From assembly GCF_003710085.1 (NCBI RefSeq), contig NZ_CP033324.1:1178001-1242000 (forward strand): DNA of 64,000 bases. Reading direction: 5' to 3'. How positions within the stretch are numbered: position 1 is the first letter of the stretch; each line of letters starts with the position of its first letter. Both the position numbers and the translations under genes were made by a program. Below the pieces are notes generated by a model, which saw only the letters and a program-made list of their open reading frames with translations, searched no databases and had not been told where the DNA came from. The stretch comes from Nocardioides pantholopis. GTDB taxonomy: Bacteria; Actinomycetota; Actinomycetes; Propionibacteriales; Nocardioidaceae. Shown here piece after piece: positions 2 through 7,251 of the stretch.

Positions 2-391
2 GGGTCGATCGGTGAGTTCACGATCGTCGTCAACGAGAAGTTCGGCGCGAACGACTGCGCCAAGGTCAAGTGCGTGATCGGCGCCCAGCCGCTGCCGGGC
101 GCGCAGGATGACGCGACGATCAACGCGAACATGGTCTTCCACGACATCAGCTTCGGCGCCGAGCCGGCCGCCGAGGCCGTGCAGGCCCCCGCGGCCCCCG
201 CCGCGCCTGCTGCCCCCGCCGCGCCGGCCGCGCCTGCCGTCGCCGCGACCACCGCGACCTCCACGCTGCCGCAGACCGGCGGCGGCGACTCGCTGCCCGT
301 CGTGCTCCTCGCCGGGTCGGCGCTGCTGCTCGGTGGCTTCGGTGTGCTGTTCGTGGTGCCGGCCCGTCGCCGCGAGCAGGCCGCCCGATGA
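2..391 (+). CDS. LPxTG surface protein, C-terminal part (5' end outside window)
   Basis: The reading frame is open from the first bases, so the gene begins upstream of the window and only its last 129 residues are visible. An extracellular stretch ends in an Ala/Pro-rich linker (PAAPAAPAAP type). It is followed by the sorting signal LPQTGGGDS, a hydrophobic helix and a basic tail (RRREQ). This is the classic order for a sortase substrate covalently attached to the cell wall. The stop overlaps the start of the next LPxTG gene (ATGA), so both are probably co-translated. The function of the ectodomain cannot be judged. Confidence 0.85.
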   Translation, partial: GSIGEFTIVVNEKFGANDCAKVKCVIGAQPLPGAQDDATINANMVFHDISFGAEPAAEAVQAPAAPAAPAAPAAPAAPAVAATTATSTLPQTGGGDSLPVVLLAGSALLLGGFGVLFVVPARRREQAAR

Positions 392-1656
392 GCGCCCGTA
401 CGCTGCGCCGCGCCGCGGCCGCAACGTTCGCGGCCGGAGGCCTGGCGCTGCTCTCGCTGCCGATGCTGGCCTCGCCGGCGTCGGCGGCTCCTGGGGACAT
501 CTCGGTCACCACCAAGATGGACTGCCAGTTCGCGACGTTCCCCCGGTTCGACTGGGATGCCGAGGTGGTGCTCAGCCAGGCCCGGGTCGACGCTTCCACG
601 ATCGCGCTGTCCGCGACCATCAGCAACCAACCCGGTGTGGTCCCGGTGCCGCTGTCCAACGCTGCGCAAGAGGCCACGCTGACGATCGAGATCGATGGGA
701 AGGAAGTCGAGCTCACTGGCTCGGGTCCGGTCACGGCCCCCTCCAAGACGCCCGTGCCGGTCCCTGACGTGAAGGGGACCTTGGCCTCCGCCACCGACCC
801 GACCGCCTTCAAGATCGTCGCTTTCGAGAACACCTTCACGGCATTCGCTCTCAGCGGTGCTTGCGTGCCGAAGGGCGGGGTGCTGCCCACGCCCACGCCC
901 ACGCCCACGCCCACGCCGACCCCGACTCCGACGCCGTCGCCCAGTCCGACGAAGGCCCCCGGCGGCGCCAAGGGGTCCCCGGCGACGGGCAACCCGAAGT
1001 TCGCCTGCACGCTCTCGCCGTTCAACAGCCCGTTCGACTACCCGGCGAAGCTCACGATCGCCGGTGCTCGGGCGACCGAGGACGGGACCGAGGTGAAGCT
1101 CGCCGGCACGCTCGGCGACATGCCGGGCGTCTCGCCGGTGGCGATCGACGCCCTTCCGATGCGCGTCAAGGTCGACGTGACCATCGACGGCAAGGCGACC
1201 ACGCTGAGCGGTGAGGCGCCGGTGTCCGCGGCCGCGAACGCGCCGGTGAAGATGCCGCCGCTCTCCGGCAGCGTCACCACCGACGCGACCAACGCCAAGG
1301 TCGAGGTGAAGGGCCTGAGCTTCGACATGGACGAGCTCGGCGGTCTGACCATCACCGCGAAGTGCACTGTCGCGTCCGGCGGTGCGCTGAGCGAGATGAA
1401 GATCGGCGTGGGCTCCCTGGACGAGGCCGGCGGCGGTGACGGCGACGCGGACGGGTCCGGCGGCGCCGGCGGTAGCGCCACGCCGGTTGCCTCCAGCGGT
1501 GGCTCGAGCACTGGCGGCGTGCTGCCGAAGACCGGCGGCGCGGACTCGATCCCGGTGATCGGCCTGTGGGCCGGCGGCCTGGCACTGCTGGGCGCGGCGA
1601 TCCTGGTGCTCGTGCCGGGCACCCCGGTGCGGGTGCGTGCCGGGAGGCACAGCTGA
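388..1656 (+). CDS. Secreted LPxTG cell-wall protein with duplicated domain
   Basis: The 422-residue product has a signal peptide (about residues 1-33, ending ASPASA-APG), two homologous domains (about 40-160 and 195-330), a (TP)n linker between them, and a C-terminal LPKTGGADS signal with membrane helix and basic tail. The two domains share the pattern C..., PGV.PV, a TIDGK...L(T/S)G strand and P.V..P.(V/L).G, so an internal duplication is visible. They resemble the DUF6801-type domain of actinobacterial secreted proteins; that assignment is from memory of the family and is tentative. The ATG overlaps the upstream stop. A hairpin terminator follows at 1755-1791. Probably a structural or adhesive wall protein; no catalytic motif is seen. 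Confidence 0.85.
   Translation: MSARTLRRAAAATFAAGGLALLSLPMLASPASAAPGDISVTTKMDCQFATFPRFDWDAEVVLSQARVDASTIALSATISNQPGVVPVPLSNAAQEATLTIEIDGKEVELTGSGPVTAPSKTPVPVPDVKGTLASATDPTAFKIVAFENTFTAFALSGACVPKGGVLPTPTPTPTPTPTPTPTPSPSPTKAPGGAKGSPATGNPKFACTLSPFNSPFDYPAKLTIAGARATEDGTEVKLAGTLGDMPGVSPVAIDALPMRVKVDVTIDGKATTLSGEAPVSAAANAPVKMPPLSGSVTTDATNAKVEVKGLSFDMDELGGLTITAKCTVASGGALSEMKIGVGSLDEAGGGDGDADGSGGAGGSATPVASSGGSSTGGVLPKTGGADSIPVIGLWAGGLALLGAAILVLVPGTPVRVRAGRHS
885..934 (+). repeat. Hexanucleotide tandem repeat coding the TP linker
   Basis: GCCCAC-type hexamers are repeated about five times and then decay into GAC/CCG variants. They encode the (Pro-Thr)n linker between the two domains of the LPxTG protein. 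Slippage here could change linker length. Confidence 0.85.
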
Positions 1657-2031: not shown

Positions 2032-3369
2032 TCAGGTGACGATGGTGGTGCCGGTGTGGTCGCGGCGCAGGTGGATGCCGTTGGGGGTTCGCCACAGGTA
2101 GGTGGTCTCGTCGAGCTTGGTATAGGTCCAGCTGGTGTGGGTCTTGGCTCGGTGGTGGGTGCGGCACAGGGGTGCGAGGTTGGGGTCGGTGGTCTCGCCG
2201 AAGTCCTCGCCGTCGCCCGGTGGTCCCTCGCGCTCGTGCCGGTGGCGGACGACGTGATCGGTGTCCGCGCGGCGGGCCGAGCGGCCGCACCAGGGGAAGA
2301 CGCAGGTCGGGTTGTTCAGGGAGACGCGTTCCGCGATCCGGTCGGGGACCTCGTAGGCGTCGGTGTGGTCGACGTCGGCGAGGTCGAGAATCGGCTTGAC
2401 GATGACCTGGGCGTCGGGGTTGGCGCACCAGGTCTTGACCTGGTCCGCGGAGACGAACGAGCGGGTGTTCTCGACCCGGGCCAGGTGCAGATTCCCGTCG
2501 CTGGGGCTGCCGAGGGCGGCGGCGCTGAGGTGGACGTGGACGACGACCTGGCGGGGCCGGCAGCGCTTGGACAGGCCCGCGACCTCGGTCGGGGTGGTGT
2601 CCAGGTCCAGGGCGAGCTGGCGGCGGGCGATCTCGCCCACGGCCAGGGAGCGGCGTACGTCGAGGGACTCCGCACAGCCGAGCTCGCCGAGGACCCGGGC
2701 CCCGCGGGCGACCGCGTCGTCGAGGTCGAGGGCGTCGGCGAGGTCCAGCTCGCCGTCCACGACCACTGTCCCGCCGAACGAGACCCGGCCGGTGTCCAGG
2801 TCGAAGTGGCGCCGGTCCGCGGCAGCGCGGCGCTTCTCCTCCGCTCCGGCGGGGTCGAACCGGACCCGGGCCTCCTCGATCAGCCGGTCCAGGGCGGCGT
2901 ACCCGATCTTCCCCGCCACCGACCAGACGTGAGCGTCGACGTACGCAGCACCGTCGGCAGGCAGCGACAGGGTGTTCGCCGCGACCTTCCGGCCCCGCCA
3001 CGCCGGTACCTCGCCGGCACGCACCGCAGCCCAGGTCTTGGGGAGCCGGTGCGCGAGCTCGACCGCCTCGCCGAGCATCGCCCGGGCCGCGTCCGAGGAC
3101 ATGCCGAGCGCGGCGCCGAGCTCCAGCGGGGCGAACTCGGTGACCAGCGGCGCACCCGGCCCCGCGATCGCCACCTCACCCTCGGCACCCGGGAGGCAGG
3201 CCGCGTCGTCGAGGCAGTCGACCGAGTGCATCGAGGCCCAGGCCACCGCAGCCTCCAGCAGCTCGCCCTCAGCCCGATCTGCGAGAGCCCGGCGCGACCG
3301 CGCGAAGGCCAGCACCGCGGCGGGGCTGTCGCACTCGCCCAGCGGGGCGGGGTTCGGGTCGATGGCCAT
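2032..3369 (-). CDS. 13E12-family DUF222 / HNH endonuclease domain protein
   Basis: The 445-residue product has an N-terminal DUF222 region (about 20-330) and a C-terminal HNH nuclease domain. The HNH domain shows CVFPWCGRSARRADTDHV, then LAPLCRTHHRAKT: the Cys pair, D-H and C..HH metal/active-site residues are present. This is the architecture of the REP13E12 family, which is multicopy and regarded as mobile in mycobacteria and common in Nocardioides. The ATG at 3369 is chosen because upstream codons run into repeat DNA. The gene sits between two inverted arrays of a 45-bp repeat, consistent with a mobile or repeat-associated element. The biological role of the family is not known. Confidence 0.85.
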   Translation of the reverse strand: MAIDPNPAPLGECDSPAAVLAFARSRRALADRAEGELLEAAVAWASMHSVDCLDDAACLPGAEGEVAIAGPGAPLVTEFAPLELGAALGMSSDAARAMLGEAVELAHRLPKTWAAVRAGEVPAWRGRKVAANTLSLPADGAAYVDAHVWSVAGKIGYAALDRLIEEARVRFDPAGAEEKRRAAADRRHFDLDTGRVSFGGTVVVDGELDLADALDLDDAVARGARVLGELGCAESLDVRRSLAVGEIARRQLALDLDTTPTEVAGLSKRCRPRQVVVHVHLSAAALGSPSDGNLHLARVENTRSFVSADQVKTWCANPDAQVIVKPILDLADVDHTDAYEVPDRIAERVSLNNPTCVFPWCGRSARRADTDHVVRHRHEREGPPGDGEDFGETTDPNLAPLCRTHHRAKTHTSWTYTKLDETTYLWRTPNGIHLRRDHTGTTIVT

Positions 3370-3540
3370 AGCACATTCTACTCGAACAAGTGTTCGAGAC
3401 GCTAGGCGTGGAATGAACAATGTGGAAGGAAATCTTGCGACGGAGGGCGGGACCGTCACCCCAAGAAACGGGAGCGGGCTCGCCGCGGGACCAAGACCCT
3501 CAACCCCAGCGGCGCGCAACCATCTGGTCCGGTGAACGCT

Positions 3541-3649
3541 GGTCTCGACACGCTCGTCGCTGGCGCTCCTCACGGCTCGACCACCGAGGGTCTCGACACG
3601 CTCGTCGCTGGCGCTCCTCACGGCTCGACCACCGAGCGGCTCGACCACC
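3541..3649. repeat. Array of ~45-bp repeats, right of HNH gene, inverted relative to left array
   Basis: Two identical 45-bp copies (3541-3585 and 3589-3633) are separated by GAG and followed by a truncated copy (3634-3649). Each begins GGTCTCGACACGCTCG and ends CACGGCTCGACCACC. They are the reverse complement of the best left-hand copy, apart from a one-base gap. The rest of 3370-3685 holds no recognisable gene. Confidence 0.9.
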
Positions 3650-3685
3650 GGAGCGGGTCGACCACCGGAGCGGGTCGCGATGCGC

Positions 3686-4469: not shown

Positions 4470-5339
4470 TCAGCTGGCGGGGGTGACCAGCTTGGTGAGC
4501 GCGGGGTCGAAGGACCGCGAGGGGGTGAAGCCGCTGTCGATCAGGCGCTGGACCGAGATCGGCTTGGTGGGGCCGGCGATCTCGCCGCGGTACTCCAGGG
4601 GCGGCAGGTCGTTCTCCGCCGAGATCGTGTCGAAGAGCGTCGCGTTCGTGGGCGGGACCTCGGCGTGCGTGAGGTTGAACAGCCCGGTGAGGCGCTGCTG
4701 GACGGCGTGCACGACCGCGTCGGCGGCGTCGTCGACGTAGAGGCGGTAGAGCAGCGCGTCGCCTGCGAACGGGACCGACCCGTGGAGGTACTGGTGGGCC
4801 ATCTTGACCTTCTCCGCGATCGGCGGGTCGCCGGGGCCGAAGATGTCGCCGCAGCGGAAGACCGCGGCGCGGTCGGCGGCCTGGAGGTAGGTCTGCTCCA
4901 TCAGCAGGAAGCTGCTCGGGCTCGGGTCGTCGGAGTCCGTGGTGGGGGAGTCCTCGTCGACGGCGTCGAGGTGGTTGGCCGCGGAGCCGTAGACCGACAG
5001 CGAGGAGAGTCCGACCAGGTACGGCGACCCGGGCGCGGAGATCACGTTCTCCGCGGTGTCCACGAGGATCTCGCGGTACGTCTTGGCCCGTCCCTCCGGC
5101 GTCATCGACTGCTGGGCCGACGGTCCGGCGCTGATGACGACCGCGTCCTGGCCGGCCACGGCCGCGTGGACGGCGTCCCGGTCGCTGCCGCGCACCACCA
5201 CGGCGTTCCCGAAGCGCTCGGTGAGCCCCTCGACCTTCGCCTCGGTGGTGGTCGTCACCGTGACCTCGTGGCCGAGCTCCTGGAGCCGGGCGGCCGTGGC
5301 CGACCCGACGAAGCCGGCGCCGATGATCAGGACCTTCAT
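4470..5339 (-). CDS. NAD(P)-binding epimerase/reductase (extended SDR-like)
   Basis: The 289-residue product begins MKVLIIGAGFVGSATA, a Rossmann GxGxxG dinucleotide-binding loop. An Asp-poor acceptor strand (TTTTEAKV) follows, suggesting NADP rather than NAD. The central motifs VVISAGPS and SSLSVYGS are those of extended SDRs. The usual YxxxK catalytic pair is not obvious: the matching stretch reads SFLLMEQ, so it may be a reductase of the NmrA/atypical type. It starts 4 bp inside the stop of the RCCR-like gene (ATGA overlap), so the two are translationally coupled and probably work on the same compound. Confidence 0.8.
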   Translation of the reverse strand: MKVLIIGAGFVGSATAARLQELGHEVTVTTTTEAKVEGLTERFGNAVVVRGSDRDAVHAAVAGQDAVVISAGPSAQQSMTPEGRAKTYREILVDTAENVISAPGSPYLVGLSSLSVYGSAANHLDAVDEDSPTTDSDDPSPSSFLLMEQTYLQAADRAAVFRCGDIFGPGDPPIAEKVKMAHQYLHGSVPFAGDALLYRLYVDDAADAVVHAVQQRLTGLFNLTHAEVPPTNATLFDTISAENDLPPLEYRGEIAGPTKPISVQRLIDSGFTPSRSFDPALTKLVTPAS

Positions 5340-6163
5340 GCTGTTTCCTCCATCTGTTGGAACCCGGCGCGGACCGCGACGAGCTCCTCGACGCGCTCGG
5401 CGCCGAGGAACTTCTTCGACAGCTCGTTCATCGGGTCGAGCGTGTAGCCGTAGGTGCGGACCTGGTGGTCACGCTGGCGGAGCGCGGCGCGCTCGGCCTC
5501 GGGGACCGCTGTCGCCTCGCGCACCCAGCCCAGCCAGGTGTCGACGCGCTCGCGGACGACCTCGCGCAGCGTCTCCACGACGTCCTCGGTGCGCTCGGCG
5601 ACGTAGGAGTGGGCGACGGGGGAGAGGAAGGCGCGCATGTACGTGCCGTGGCTGACCGACCAGGTGAAGCGGTCGTCGCCGCGCAGCTGGAGGAACGACT
5701 CGTTCTGCGGCTCGTAGTACTTCGCGAGGTAGTCGGTCTCGACCATCAGGTCGCGCCGGGAGACGAACTCGCTGTAGAAGAAGATCTGCGGGATCGTGCC
5801 GAACACGATGATCAGGTGGGGTACGTCGACCTCCGGGCCGAGCCAGACCTGGAGGTTCATGTCCAGGATCGAGTTCTTCCGGTTACCGATCCAGGAGTGC
5901 ACCAGCCACTCGGCGTGCGGGCCGTCGGCCGCGGGCTCGCCGGCGAAGGTGTTCATCGCCCCCTCGTAGCTGGCGTCGTCGGTGGCCCAGTAGTCCAGGC
6001 CGGCGCTGCTCGGGTGCGGCTGCACCGGGAGCTCTGCGGTGATCCGGTCCTTGGCCTCGCTGAGGATCTCCCAGAACTGGGCCCACAGCTCGGAGCTGTC
6101 GACGTCCGGGGACTCGGCGAGGAACTCGTGGATGGTCTTGGTCTGCGCGCTGCTTCCGCTCAC
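5336..6163 (-). CDS. Red chlorophyll catabolite reductase (RCCR)-family protein
   Basis: The 275-residue product matches the plant RCCR family (RCC_reductase) along its length: a HSWIGNRK segment, DVPHLIIVFG, SRRDLMVETDYLAKYYE, MRAFLSPVAHS, then a helix with VDTWLGWV and a final FLGAERVEELVAVRAGF. Plant RCCR is a ferredoxin-dependent bilin reductase that opens the way from red to colourless chlorophyll breakdown products. A Glu that I recall in the plant counterpart of the LIIVFG strand is not kept, so the substrate may differ. The GTG start at 6163 is chosen because earlier codons lie in the divergent promoter. The gene overlaps the SDR-like gene and is divergent from the monooxygenase/hydrolase block. 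Confidence 0.75.
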   Translation of the reverse strand: MSGSSAQTKTIHEFLAESPDVDSSELWAQFWEILSEAKDRITAELPVQPHPSSAGLDYWATDDASYEGAMNTFAGEPAADGPHAEWLVHSWIGNRKNSILDMNLQVWLGPEVDVPHLIIVFGTIPQIFFYSEFVSRRDLMVETDYLAKYYEPQNESFLQLRGDDRFTWSVSHGTYMRAFLSPVAHSYVAERTEDVVETLREVVRERVDTWLGWVREATAVPEAERAALRQRDHQVRTYGYTLDPMNELSKKFLGAERVEELVAVRAGFQQMEETA

Positions 6164-6211
6164 GTCCCGCACCCTATAGATATATGATCTACGAATCCAG
6201 AGGAGTTGCGA
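6164..6211. promoter_or_regulatory. Divergent promoter with palindrome TAGAT-N5-ATCTA
   Basis: This 48-bp gap separates the RCCR-like gene (minus) from the monooxygenase-like gene (plus). On the minus strand TAGATCATATATCTA is directly followed by TAGGGT, the same -10-like hexamer found next to the operators at 7236 and 24599. The palindrome differs from the TATGTC-N-GACATA operator, so a second regulator may act here. On the plus strand AGAGGAG precedes the ATG at 6212. Confidence 0.5.
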
Positions 6212-6535
6212 ATGATCGTCGTGGTGAGCCAGGCCTGGACCAAGCCGGGCGAGGAGCATGCGCAGGCCTACATCGCGCTGAACGAGCAGTTCGGCCGGTT
6301 CTGGCGCGACCACCCCGGCTTCCGCGGCCGGCGCCTGGTGCGCGGGGTCGAGGACCGCACGCACTTCACCCACCTGCGCTGGTTCGACTCGGTGGAGAGC
6401 TACGAGGAGTGCACCTGCGCGGAGGGGTACGCCGACCACACGGTCCTCATGTACGAGCACCTGCAGCCCTACGACTCCTATCCGCGGGAGTTCCTCGAGA
6501 TGGTCATCGACGAGCCGGGCGCGGTCGCGCCGTGA
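6212..6535 (+). CDS. Small antibiotic-biosynthesis-monooxygenase-like (ABM/Dabb fold) protein
   Basis: The 107-residue product has the size and layout of the dimeric alpha-beta barrel family: an initial strand MIVVVSQAWTKPG, a helix with ALNEQFGRFWRDHPGFRGRRLV, then HFTHLRWFDSVESYEEC and YEHLQPYDSYP. Such proteins are cofactor-free monooxygenases, haem-degrading enzymes or cyclases. The ATG at 6212 follows an AGAGGAG site. The stop overlaps the GTG of the hydrolase, forming an operon. With an RCCR-like gene next door, oxidation of a tetrapyrrole-like substrate is conceivable but not shown. Confidence 0.65.
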   Translation: MIVVVSQAWTKPGEEHAQAYIALNEQFGRFWRDHPGFRGRRLVRGVEDRTHFTHLRWFDSVESYEECTCAEGYADHTVLMYEHLQPYDSYPREFLEMVIDEPGAVAP

Positions 6536-7251
6536 CGACGTTCGTCCTGGTGCACGGGGCCTTCCGGGGCGGCTGGGCCTGGCGGCGGGTGCGCCCGCAC
6601 CTGGTCGCCGCCGGCCACGACGTGCACGCGCCCAGCCTGCTCGGCGCCGGCGAGCGGGTCGCCCTGGCGGCCGCGGTGACCGGTCTGGACAGCTGGGTCG
6701 ACGAGCTGGAGGCGCTCCTGGTCGCCGAGGACCTCACCGACGTGGTCCTGGTCGGCCACAGCCAGGGCGGCATCGTGACGACGGCGCTGGCCGCCCGGGT
6801 GCCCGAGCGGCTGCGCTGCGTGGTGCACCTGGACGCCGCCGTGCCGGAGCCCGGGGAGCGGGCGCTCGACCTGGGCCCCGGCGGACCGGTGCCGGAGCGC
6901 GACCTGCTGGTCCCGCCGCGCCCGCTGGCGGCGGACACCGCGGACGGCGGCGACCTCGACGCGGCGACCGCCGCCTGGACGAGCGCCCGACTCACGCCGA
7001 CGCCGGTCGCCCCCTCGCTGGACCCGGTTCCCGCCGTGCCGGACGGGGTCCGGCAGATCTACGCCTTCTGCGACCGGACGCCGCCCGGCTACCCCTCGCA
7101 GGTCACCCGCGCCCGTCTCGACGCGCGCGGTACGCCGTACACGGTCCTGGCCGCGGGGCACGACGCCCCGCTGACCGCGCCGGAGCTCGTGGCCGACCTG
7201 CTGCTGTCCGCTGCTGGGCAGACCCTTGACCTCCATATGTCTGACATTTAG
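6532..7251 (+). CDS. Alpha/beta hydrolase (esterase, hydroxynitrile-lyase-like branch)
   Basis: The 239-residue product has the oxyanion-hole motif LVHGAFRGGWAW, the nucleophile elbow GHSQGG, the acid region near YAFCDRTPPGY and the catalytic His in AAGHDAPLTAPE. This matches the small esterase branch related to MekB, salicylate esterase and hydroxynitrile lyases. It probably hydrolyses an ester or an activated C-C bond of the pathway substrate. The GTG start overlaps the upstream stop (GTGA). Its last codons (coding MSDI) are themselves the operator of the next transcription block. Confidence 0.85.
   Translation: MTTFVLVHGAFRGGWAWRRVRPHLVAAGHDVHAPSLLGAGERVALAAAVTGLDSWVDELEALLVAEDLTDVVLVGHSQGGIVTTALAARVPERLRCVVHLDAAVPEPGERALDLGPGGPVPERDLLVPPRPLAADTADGGDLDAATAAWTSARLTPTPVAPSLDPVPAVPDGVRQIYAFCDRTPPGYPSQVTRARLDARGTPYTVLAAGHDAPLTAPELVADLLLSAAGQTLDLHMSDI

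Follow-up and report, generated by a model that had tools for sequence, protein, structure and literature searches.

Why a bacterium should carry a relative of red chlorophyll catabolite reductase (RCCR), and on which compound such a protein would act, is the question raised by a 64,000-nucleotide stretch of DNA from the soil actinobacterium Nocardioides pantholopis (the window; the interval 1178001-1242000 on a single contig of 4.04 Mb). Enormous amounts of chlorophyll are degraded annually, and in plants the process ends at phyllobilins. In the literature that we searched, the microbes and genes that finish chlorophyll breakdown after the plant phyllobilins were not identified, and we found no direct precedent for a bacterial RCCR or for a bilin or chlorophyll catabolic cluster; the outgroup of RCCRs 'and related sequences' used in PMC10151467 may include some such proteins. 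The gene cluster described here is a concrete and testable candidate for the microbial completion of chlorophyll breakdown. Moreover, relatives of RCCR and of the ferredoxin-dependent bilin reductases (FDBRs) in a catabolic setting of non-photosynthetic bacteria bear on the origin of plant RCCR and of bilin reductases.

The gene in question, which we call RCCR-B, occupies window positions 5336-6163 on the minus strand and encodes 275 amino acids from a GTG start codon. Its orthologues begin at the identical residue, and therefore the coordinates given in the first-pass annotation, which named no strand, are correct. The plus-strand open frame opposite RCCR-B is the usual shadow of GC-rich DNA. 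The conservation observed in 12 loci is that of the minus-strand protein, which, together with the profile and fold matches, leads us to reject a chance or shadow ORF. Plasmid and viral origins were rejected as well, as RCCR-B has no match among 72,556 plasmids and no relatives in the viral contigs searched.

RCCR-B had been proposed to align with the plant RCC_reductase family. Indeed, it matches the Pfam RCC_reductase profile PF06405 with an E value of 1.4e-14 and 54.3 bits, above the curated cut-off of 24.9, and its residues 33-252 align with positions 9-239 of the 253 in the profile, a region that includes both motifs quoted in support of that proposal. Because PF06405 finds nothing in any of 14 control genomes, this match is well beyond chance. 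The FDBR profile PF05996 (Fe_bilin_red) leaves RCCR-B unmatched up to E 1. When the single sequence is searched against the PDB, Arabidopsis RCCR (3agb) ranks at the top (E 3.5e-4) and the next relevant entry is phytochromobilin synthase (0.09), and a profile of 30 RCCR-B relatives recovers RCCR at 1.2e-20, PebB at 1.5e-7, and phytochromobilin synthase at 2e-4.

An AlphaFold (AF2) model built from 13 orthologues (pLDDT 84.5, pTM 0.85) adopts the RCCR/FDBR fold. Its best Foldseek match is plant RCCR (2zxk, E 6e-13), and VIA-align likewise places RCCR nearest (Z 24.2 over 251 residues, rmsd 2.9, 17% identity), followed by phytochromobilin synthase (23.8), PebB (23.7), and PcyA (~22); the FDBRs, including PebA, range from 21 to 24, and coproporphyrinogen oxidase is further away (~16-17). 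RCCR-B is thus securely a distant member of the RCCR/FDBR superfamily. It has in common with plant RCCR (PF06405; 2zxk, 3aga) the Pfam match, the fold, a C-terminal Asp, and a VS...R...SP motif, and with the FDBRs (PebB 6qwq, phytochromobilin synthase 6kmd, and PcyA) the fold. When one plant RCCR and two FDBRs serve as references in a tree, RCCR-B and its paralogue RCCR-A join plant RCCR (95/57) and are separated from the FDBRs (100/99), with long reference branches and an unreliable rooting; the RCCR-like cluster proteins lie far from the plant enzyme in this tree. The known families of the fold, which are RCCR, FDBR, and oxygen-dependent coproporphyrinogen oxidase, all act on tetrapyrroles according to PMC10151467 and PMC13193486.

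The setting of the gene had been described as an actinobacterial catabolic cluster, which is right and understated. Gene calling and comparison with eight Nocardioides/Mumia genomes delimit a conserved block of ~33 kb (1151738-1185251) that lies mostly to the left of the window. In order, this block encodes a C-N hydrolase, a GntR protein, a flavin reductase, an acyl-CoA-dehydrogenase-like flavoprotein, an ALDH, a PEP-mutase/ICL lyase, an FAD monooxygenase, a second ALDH, RCCR-A, an alpha/beta hydrolase, a Rieske oxygenase (VanA_C), the products of genes 16 and 17, an SDR, the product of gene 19, an Amdase/maleate-isomerase family protein, a sortase, a secreted protein, an ABC transporter with a branched-chain-type permease, a neocarzinostatin-family LPXTG protein, a second LPXTG protein, the NAD epimerase, RCCR-B, an ABM protein, and a further alpha/beta hydrolase. 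The check for co-occurring genes yields a second RCCR-like gene and an FDBR-like gene together with Rieske, amidase, isomerase, lyase, and importer genes in one conserved cluster.

RCCR-A (1162278-1163087, plus strand) is 31% identical to RCCR-B, lies 20 kb from it, and also scores above the cut-off for PF05996 (35.1 versus 31). Plant RCCR acts after a Rieske oxygenase, and RCCR-A adjoins the Rieske gene of the cluster. This Rieske protein is recognized by VanA_C but by no PaO model, and a PaO-type Rieske was rejected, as PF08417 matches nothing in the genome. Among the annotated cluster proteins, none was recognized as a haem oxygenase, bilin-binding globin, V4R protein, phytochrome, or Fe-S protein, and no ferredoxin was recognized in the cluster; the one haem oxygenase of the genome is 2 Mb away. 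A search for a Staygreen Mg-dechelatase gave no match, and none in the controls either. Most cluster enzymes come from broad families serving many substrates. NCBIfam models give no score above an equivalog cut-off for the Amdase-family, amidohydrolase, or isochorismatase proteins, so that substrate names cannot be transferred to them.

Within the window, the neighbours of RCCR-B are as the first-pass annotation described them. The start of the gene for the NAD-dependent epimerase/dehydratase-like oxidoreductase (4470-5339, minus strand; 289 aa; PF01370, 53.6 bits) overlaps the RCCR-B stop by 4 bp, which suggests that the pair is likely translationally coupled. The two genes adjoin in 11 of the 12 fetched loci (the exception being L019), and the overlap is kept in all of these but L015. 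Divergent from RCCR-B is the gene for a 107-aa ABM-fold protein (6212-6535, plus strand; PF03992, 24.6 bits with a cut-off of 23.1), which is found beside RCCR-B in 11 loci at 71-85% identity and has a homologue that also adjoins the core cluster of genome G678. The 239-aa alpha/beta hydrolase that follows (6532-7251, plus strand; PF12697, 70 bits) is closest in the PDB to the plant methylesterase/hydroxynitrile-lyase family (SABP2, 3e-14; 5hk8, 'probable pheophorbidase', 1.3e-8). It forms the right end of the conserved cluster, as genes to the right of 7251 are not conserved with it. Of 12 loci fetched independently, 11 have all four genes grouped.

At the left edge of the window, positions 1-391 hold the 3' part of gene 27 (plus strand; in full G000:C1:1177726-1178391, L022:14726-15391), whose product combines a neocarzinostatin-family domain (PF00960, 63 bits) with a Gram_pos_anchor match (20 bits) and an LPQTG anchor, and whose position is conserved among the clusters of relatives. 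Gene 28 (388-1656, plus strand) encodes a secreted, cell-wall-anchored protein of 422 aa with an LPKTG sorting motif; its counterparts at the same position in Nocardioides/Mumia clusters are 32-40% identical. We note separately that the gene 27 domain is a chromophore-binding apoprotein fold and that other families have similar proteins in their clusters (G416, G298). A 445-aa ORF (2032-3369) with an HNH-nuclease-like C-terminus separates the LPXTG gene from the epimerase gene; it is missing there in relatives, and short repeated DNA is present near it, around 3400-3650.

Gene 16 (1165344-1166084; L022:2344-3084), next to the Rieske gene, encodes a third FDBR-like protein. It has no Pfam match above cut-off, and its best PDB profile match, to phytochromobilin synthase, is weak and not significant alone (E 0.22). 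Alignment with the RCCR profile by hhalign gives a probability of 97% and an E value of 3.9e-11. All 17 family members carry an Asp at the FDBR Asp105 position as well as a C-terminal Asp, and a His stands one column off the His88 position. Gene 16 appears to represent an unannotated third family of the FDBR superfamily, found only in genomes with RCCR-like genes. Gene 17 (G000:C1:1166081-1167034; L022:3081-4034; 317 aa) belongs to a highly conserved family with a mean column identity of 67% (15 sequences) and without known relatives, which always accompanies the RCCR cluster. Membership of gene 17 in a known bilin lyase or lipocalin family was considered and rejected, as Pfam is unmatched and PDB profile matches are not significant.

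The distribution of these families is narrow and coincident. PF06405 matches are present in 14 of the 394 genomes of the class, the gene 16 profile finds exactly the same 14, and gene 17 is present in 11 of them and in no others in the sample; the 14 genomes span four families and are not independent. Two genomes of the phylum that lie outside the class preserve the order RCCR-A/Rieske/gene 16/gene 17. Actinomycetes with 8-Mb genomes have a cluster that contains RCCR-A only. RCCR-B was seen only in Nocardioides/Mumia, one small-genome family, and a single MAG; the minimal clusters of other families lack it.

The 48-bp gap between the divergent RCCR-B and ABM genes contains an operator-like site, GATATATGATC (6179-6189, plus strand), which in relatives mostly reads GATATATGATCTAY. 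Besides the window, 11 loci contain the element; two Mumia loci have a C in place of the G, and two others read CATATATGATC/TATATATGATC. Its degenerate form RATATATSATC, a pattern picked after viewing the cluster sites so that the count is partly circular, occurs four times in the whole 4-Mb genome, three of them in the cluster. The sites stand upstream of the core operon (1154219), the sortase/secreted gene (1170272), RCCR-B/ABM (1184179), and a BciA-like gene (1413456). The backwards control pattern occurs 0 times here and in nine relatives. Over nine genomes, 27 of 39 sites fall at most 25 kb from the cluster, and in G028, G002, and G020 further sites precede operons adjoining it. One such operon encodes a CoA-transferase and an isochorismatase-type amidase and is divergent from an HMGL gene; another (G028, G002) encodes a CoA-transferase, a Cyclase protein, MmgE/PrpD, and an allantoinase/dihydropyrimidinase-type amidohydrolase. 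The 11-mer would tie RCCR-B, the core operon, the transport region, and the BciA-like gene into a candidate regulon under a putative regulator.

The BciA-like gene (G000:C1:1413516-1414613; L091:9517-10614) is far from the cluster, and its product matches PF13460 (76.9 bits). Over 315 columns it has just 29% identity to a protein of Rhodobacter sp. CZR27 whose annotation says no more than NAD(P)H-binding and which, judging by replicon and sequence, we take to be BciA. In R. sphaeroides, BciA is rsp_3070 (PMC3931815). The resemblance to the BciA/DVR 8-vinyl reductases lies in the PF13460 family and in this identity, over most of the length, to a presumed BciA; the gene is only one part of the candidate regulon, and its product is a putative vinyl reductase. 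Among 341 genomes only 4 carry it, and these are exactly the members of the window organism's family in the sample that have both RCCR-A and RCCR-B; it is unlinked to the cluster in the window's genome and beside it in G028.

To what extent RCCR-B could act as its plant relative does was judged by aligning RCCR-B with Arabidopsis RCCR, PebB, and phytochromobilin synthase (numbers refer to the 275-aa RCCR-B). Glu154 and Asp291 are catalytic residues of RCCR, and Asp105 is the central catalytic Asp of the FDBRs; Asp105 and His88 are numbered on PcyA. The position of RCCR Glu154 and FDBR Asp105 is Val120 in RCCR-B, with Val in 12 of 12 B-type and Ala in 18 of 18 A-type proteins; in phytochromobilin synthase it is Asn. 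The C-terminal Asp (Asp243) is invariant in RCCR-B, RCCR-A, and the FDBR-like proteins, and aligns with Asp290 or Asp291, gap placement being ambiguous. Both RCCR-A and RCCR-B keep Ser171 and Arg177. RCCR Phe218 is replaced by Leu180, and the PcyA His88 position holds Asn103 in RCCR-B (as in PebB) and His in RCCR-A. By this alignment RCCR-B has the scaffold and only part of the catalytic set, and the name RCC reductase is therefore inappropriate. Given the Val and Ala at the Glu154/Asp105 position, activity may differ or be absent. Thus, the identification as an RCCR homologue stands for ancestry and for the bilin-reductase fold, whereas RCCR-B is not a plant-type RCC reductase: Glu154 and Phe218 are replaced, the bacterial proteins form a paralogue pair, and the accompanying Rieske is VanA-type in a genome that has no match to the PaO model.

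What, then, might the cluster degrade? We put it at about an even chance that RCCR-B is part of a catabolic cluster, co-regulated and dedicated to an exogenous linear tetrapyrrole, such as a bilin-type product of chlorophyll, phycobilin, or haem, and the assignment of the substrate class itself could equally well go either way. In this reading, RCCR-B would be a bilin-binding protein that has the RCCR/FDBR fold and no cofactor, and most likely a ferredoxin-dependent reductase. An earlier suggestion of a link to chlorophyll or haem breakdown is well motivated by the three FDBR/RCCR-fold proteins, the BciA-like gene with its common site, and the maleimide-type enzymes; a linear tetrapyrrole is thereby a candidate substrate. 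The coincident distribution of the RCCR-like and gene 16 families, the conserved gene order, and the 11-mer add to the case. Against it weigh the Val and Ala at the Glu154/Asp105 position, the lack of a haem oxygenase or recognized ferredoxin in the cluster and of a PaO match in the genome, the breadth of most of the enzyme families, and the low identity between the BciA-like protein and its presumed Rhodobacter counterpart. When the pyrrole rings of bilins are oxidatively broken down, they yield methyl-substituted maleimides. The cluster and the neighbouring operons of relatives encode cyclic-amide hydrolases, half-amide hydrolases, a maleate-isomerase-family protein, mesaconate-type CoA-transferases, and citramalate/methylisocitrate-type lyases. 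Each of these downstream enzymes is generic and none is assigned by a curated cut-off; jointly, as judged from family membership, they would fit maleimide/maleamate/maleate chemistry. We propose a maleimide route because such products and such enzymes coincide.

In this scheme for linear tetrapyrrole catabolism, the cell-wall-anchored proteins and the branched-chain-type ABC transporter would capture and import the pigment. RCCR-A, RCCR-B, the third FDBR-like protein, and the BciA-like vinyl reductase might then reduce and tailor it, with alpha/beta hydrolases cleaving esters, after which the Rieske and flavin monooxygenases could cleave it oxidatively so that its units end as substituted maleimides. 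Imide and half-amide would be hydrolyzed by the amidohydrolase, isochorismatase-type, and C-N hydrolases, followed by cis-trans isomerization by the Amdase/maleate-isomerase-family protein, and by hydration and C-C cleavage through MmgE/PrpD, CoA-transferase, and HpcH/HpaI, HMGL, or PEP-mutase-family lyases. Whether this amounts to a complete aerobic pathway, in which several actinobacterial classes import chlorophyll- or haem-derived linear tetrapyrroles and convert them to central metabolites via three FDBR/RCCR-fold proteins, a Rieske oxygenase, and a maleimide-type lower pathway, is a bolder idea that we put forward tentatively and at less than even confidence.

An unlikely but serious alternative is that the cluster degrades another hydrophobic or N-heterocyclic compound (a steroid, a flavin-like molecule, or a plant natural product) and has recruited the RCCR/FDBR fold. 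The Rieske oxygenase, the two-component flavin monooxygenase (with HsaA/HsaB-like matches), the FAD monooxygenase, and the ALDHs are common in clusters of that kind, and the RCCR catalytic acid is lost in RCCR-A and RCCR-B. A reconstituted lumichrome/riboflavin catabolic cluster of Nocardioides simplex, which includes a Rieske dioxygenase and hydrolases, provides a precedent in the same genus for a coloured heterocycle; the accessible part of its description mentions no RCCR/FDBR-fold protein and gives a different gene set (PMC12746152). Recruitment is hard to reconcile with three separate FDBR/RCCR-fold families and a BciA-like gene under one operator-like motif, and with the action of the fold's known enzyme families on tetrapyrroles.

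Alternatively, RCCR-B might bind a bilin without redox activity, as a carrier, chaperone, or isomerase, and leave reduction to the Asp-bearing FDBR-like protein. The invariant Val of the B-type proteins, the invariant Asp of the gene 16 family, and the lack of RCCR-B in minimal clusters are consistent with this division of labour, which we nevertheless find improbable: the C-terminal Asp, Arg177, and Ser171 are kept, and phytochromobilin synthase, an active FDBR, also has no acid at the position in question.

It is very doubtful that RCCR-B is a true RCC reductase in a plant-like PaO/RCCR degradation of pheophorbide a. The plant PaO/phyllobilin pathway and the cluster do have in common a Rieske oxygenase, an RCCR-like protein, and a methylesterase-family hydrolase (6532-7251); RCCR-A adjoins the Rieske gene in Nocardioides/Mumia, 8-Mb actinomycete, and other-class clusters alike, and the BciA-like gene has the common operator-like site. 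Against this, the Rieske is of the VanA type with PF08417 unmatched, Glu154 is not conserved, and the proteins are distant from plant RCCR in the tree. Unlike the plant pathway, the cluster further includes ring-opening, amidase, isomerase, and lyase genes. Synthesis of a bilin pigment, as by FDBR genes in phototrophs, is highly improbable, for although PMC10151467 describes pre-PcyA proteins of the FDBR fold from non-photosynthetic, heterotrophic bacteria as active bilin-producing enzymes, the clusters that it reports have haem oxygenase, globin, V4R, or B12-binding partners, whereas in the present cluster neither these nor a phytochrome gene were recognized, and it consists of oxygenases, hydrolases, lyases, and an importer.

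Two further observations concern RCCR-like genes elsewhere. Actinobacteria with genomes of 1.0-1.7 Mb (G061, G089, G140, G107; loci L046-L050, L055) contain as many as four RCCR-like and five gene-16-like genes each, a heavy investment for genomes of this size. Finally, on two contigs differing in GC (L019:4005-7337 and L055:741-3964), RCCR-B shares one gene order with a FemX-like and an alanine-racemase-like gene at a site outside the catabolic cluster, an arrangement that represents an isolated use of RCCR-B.
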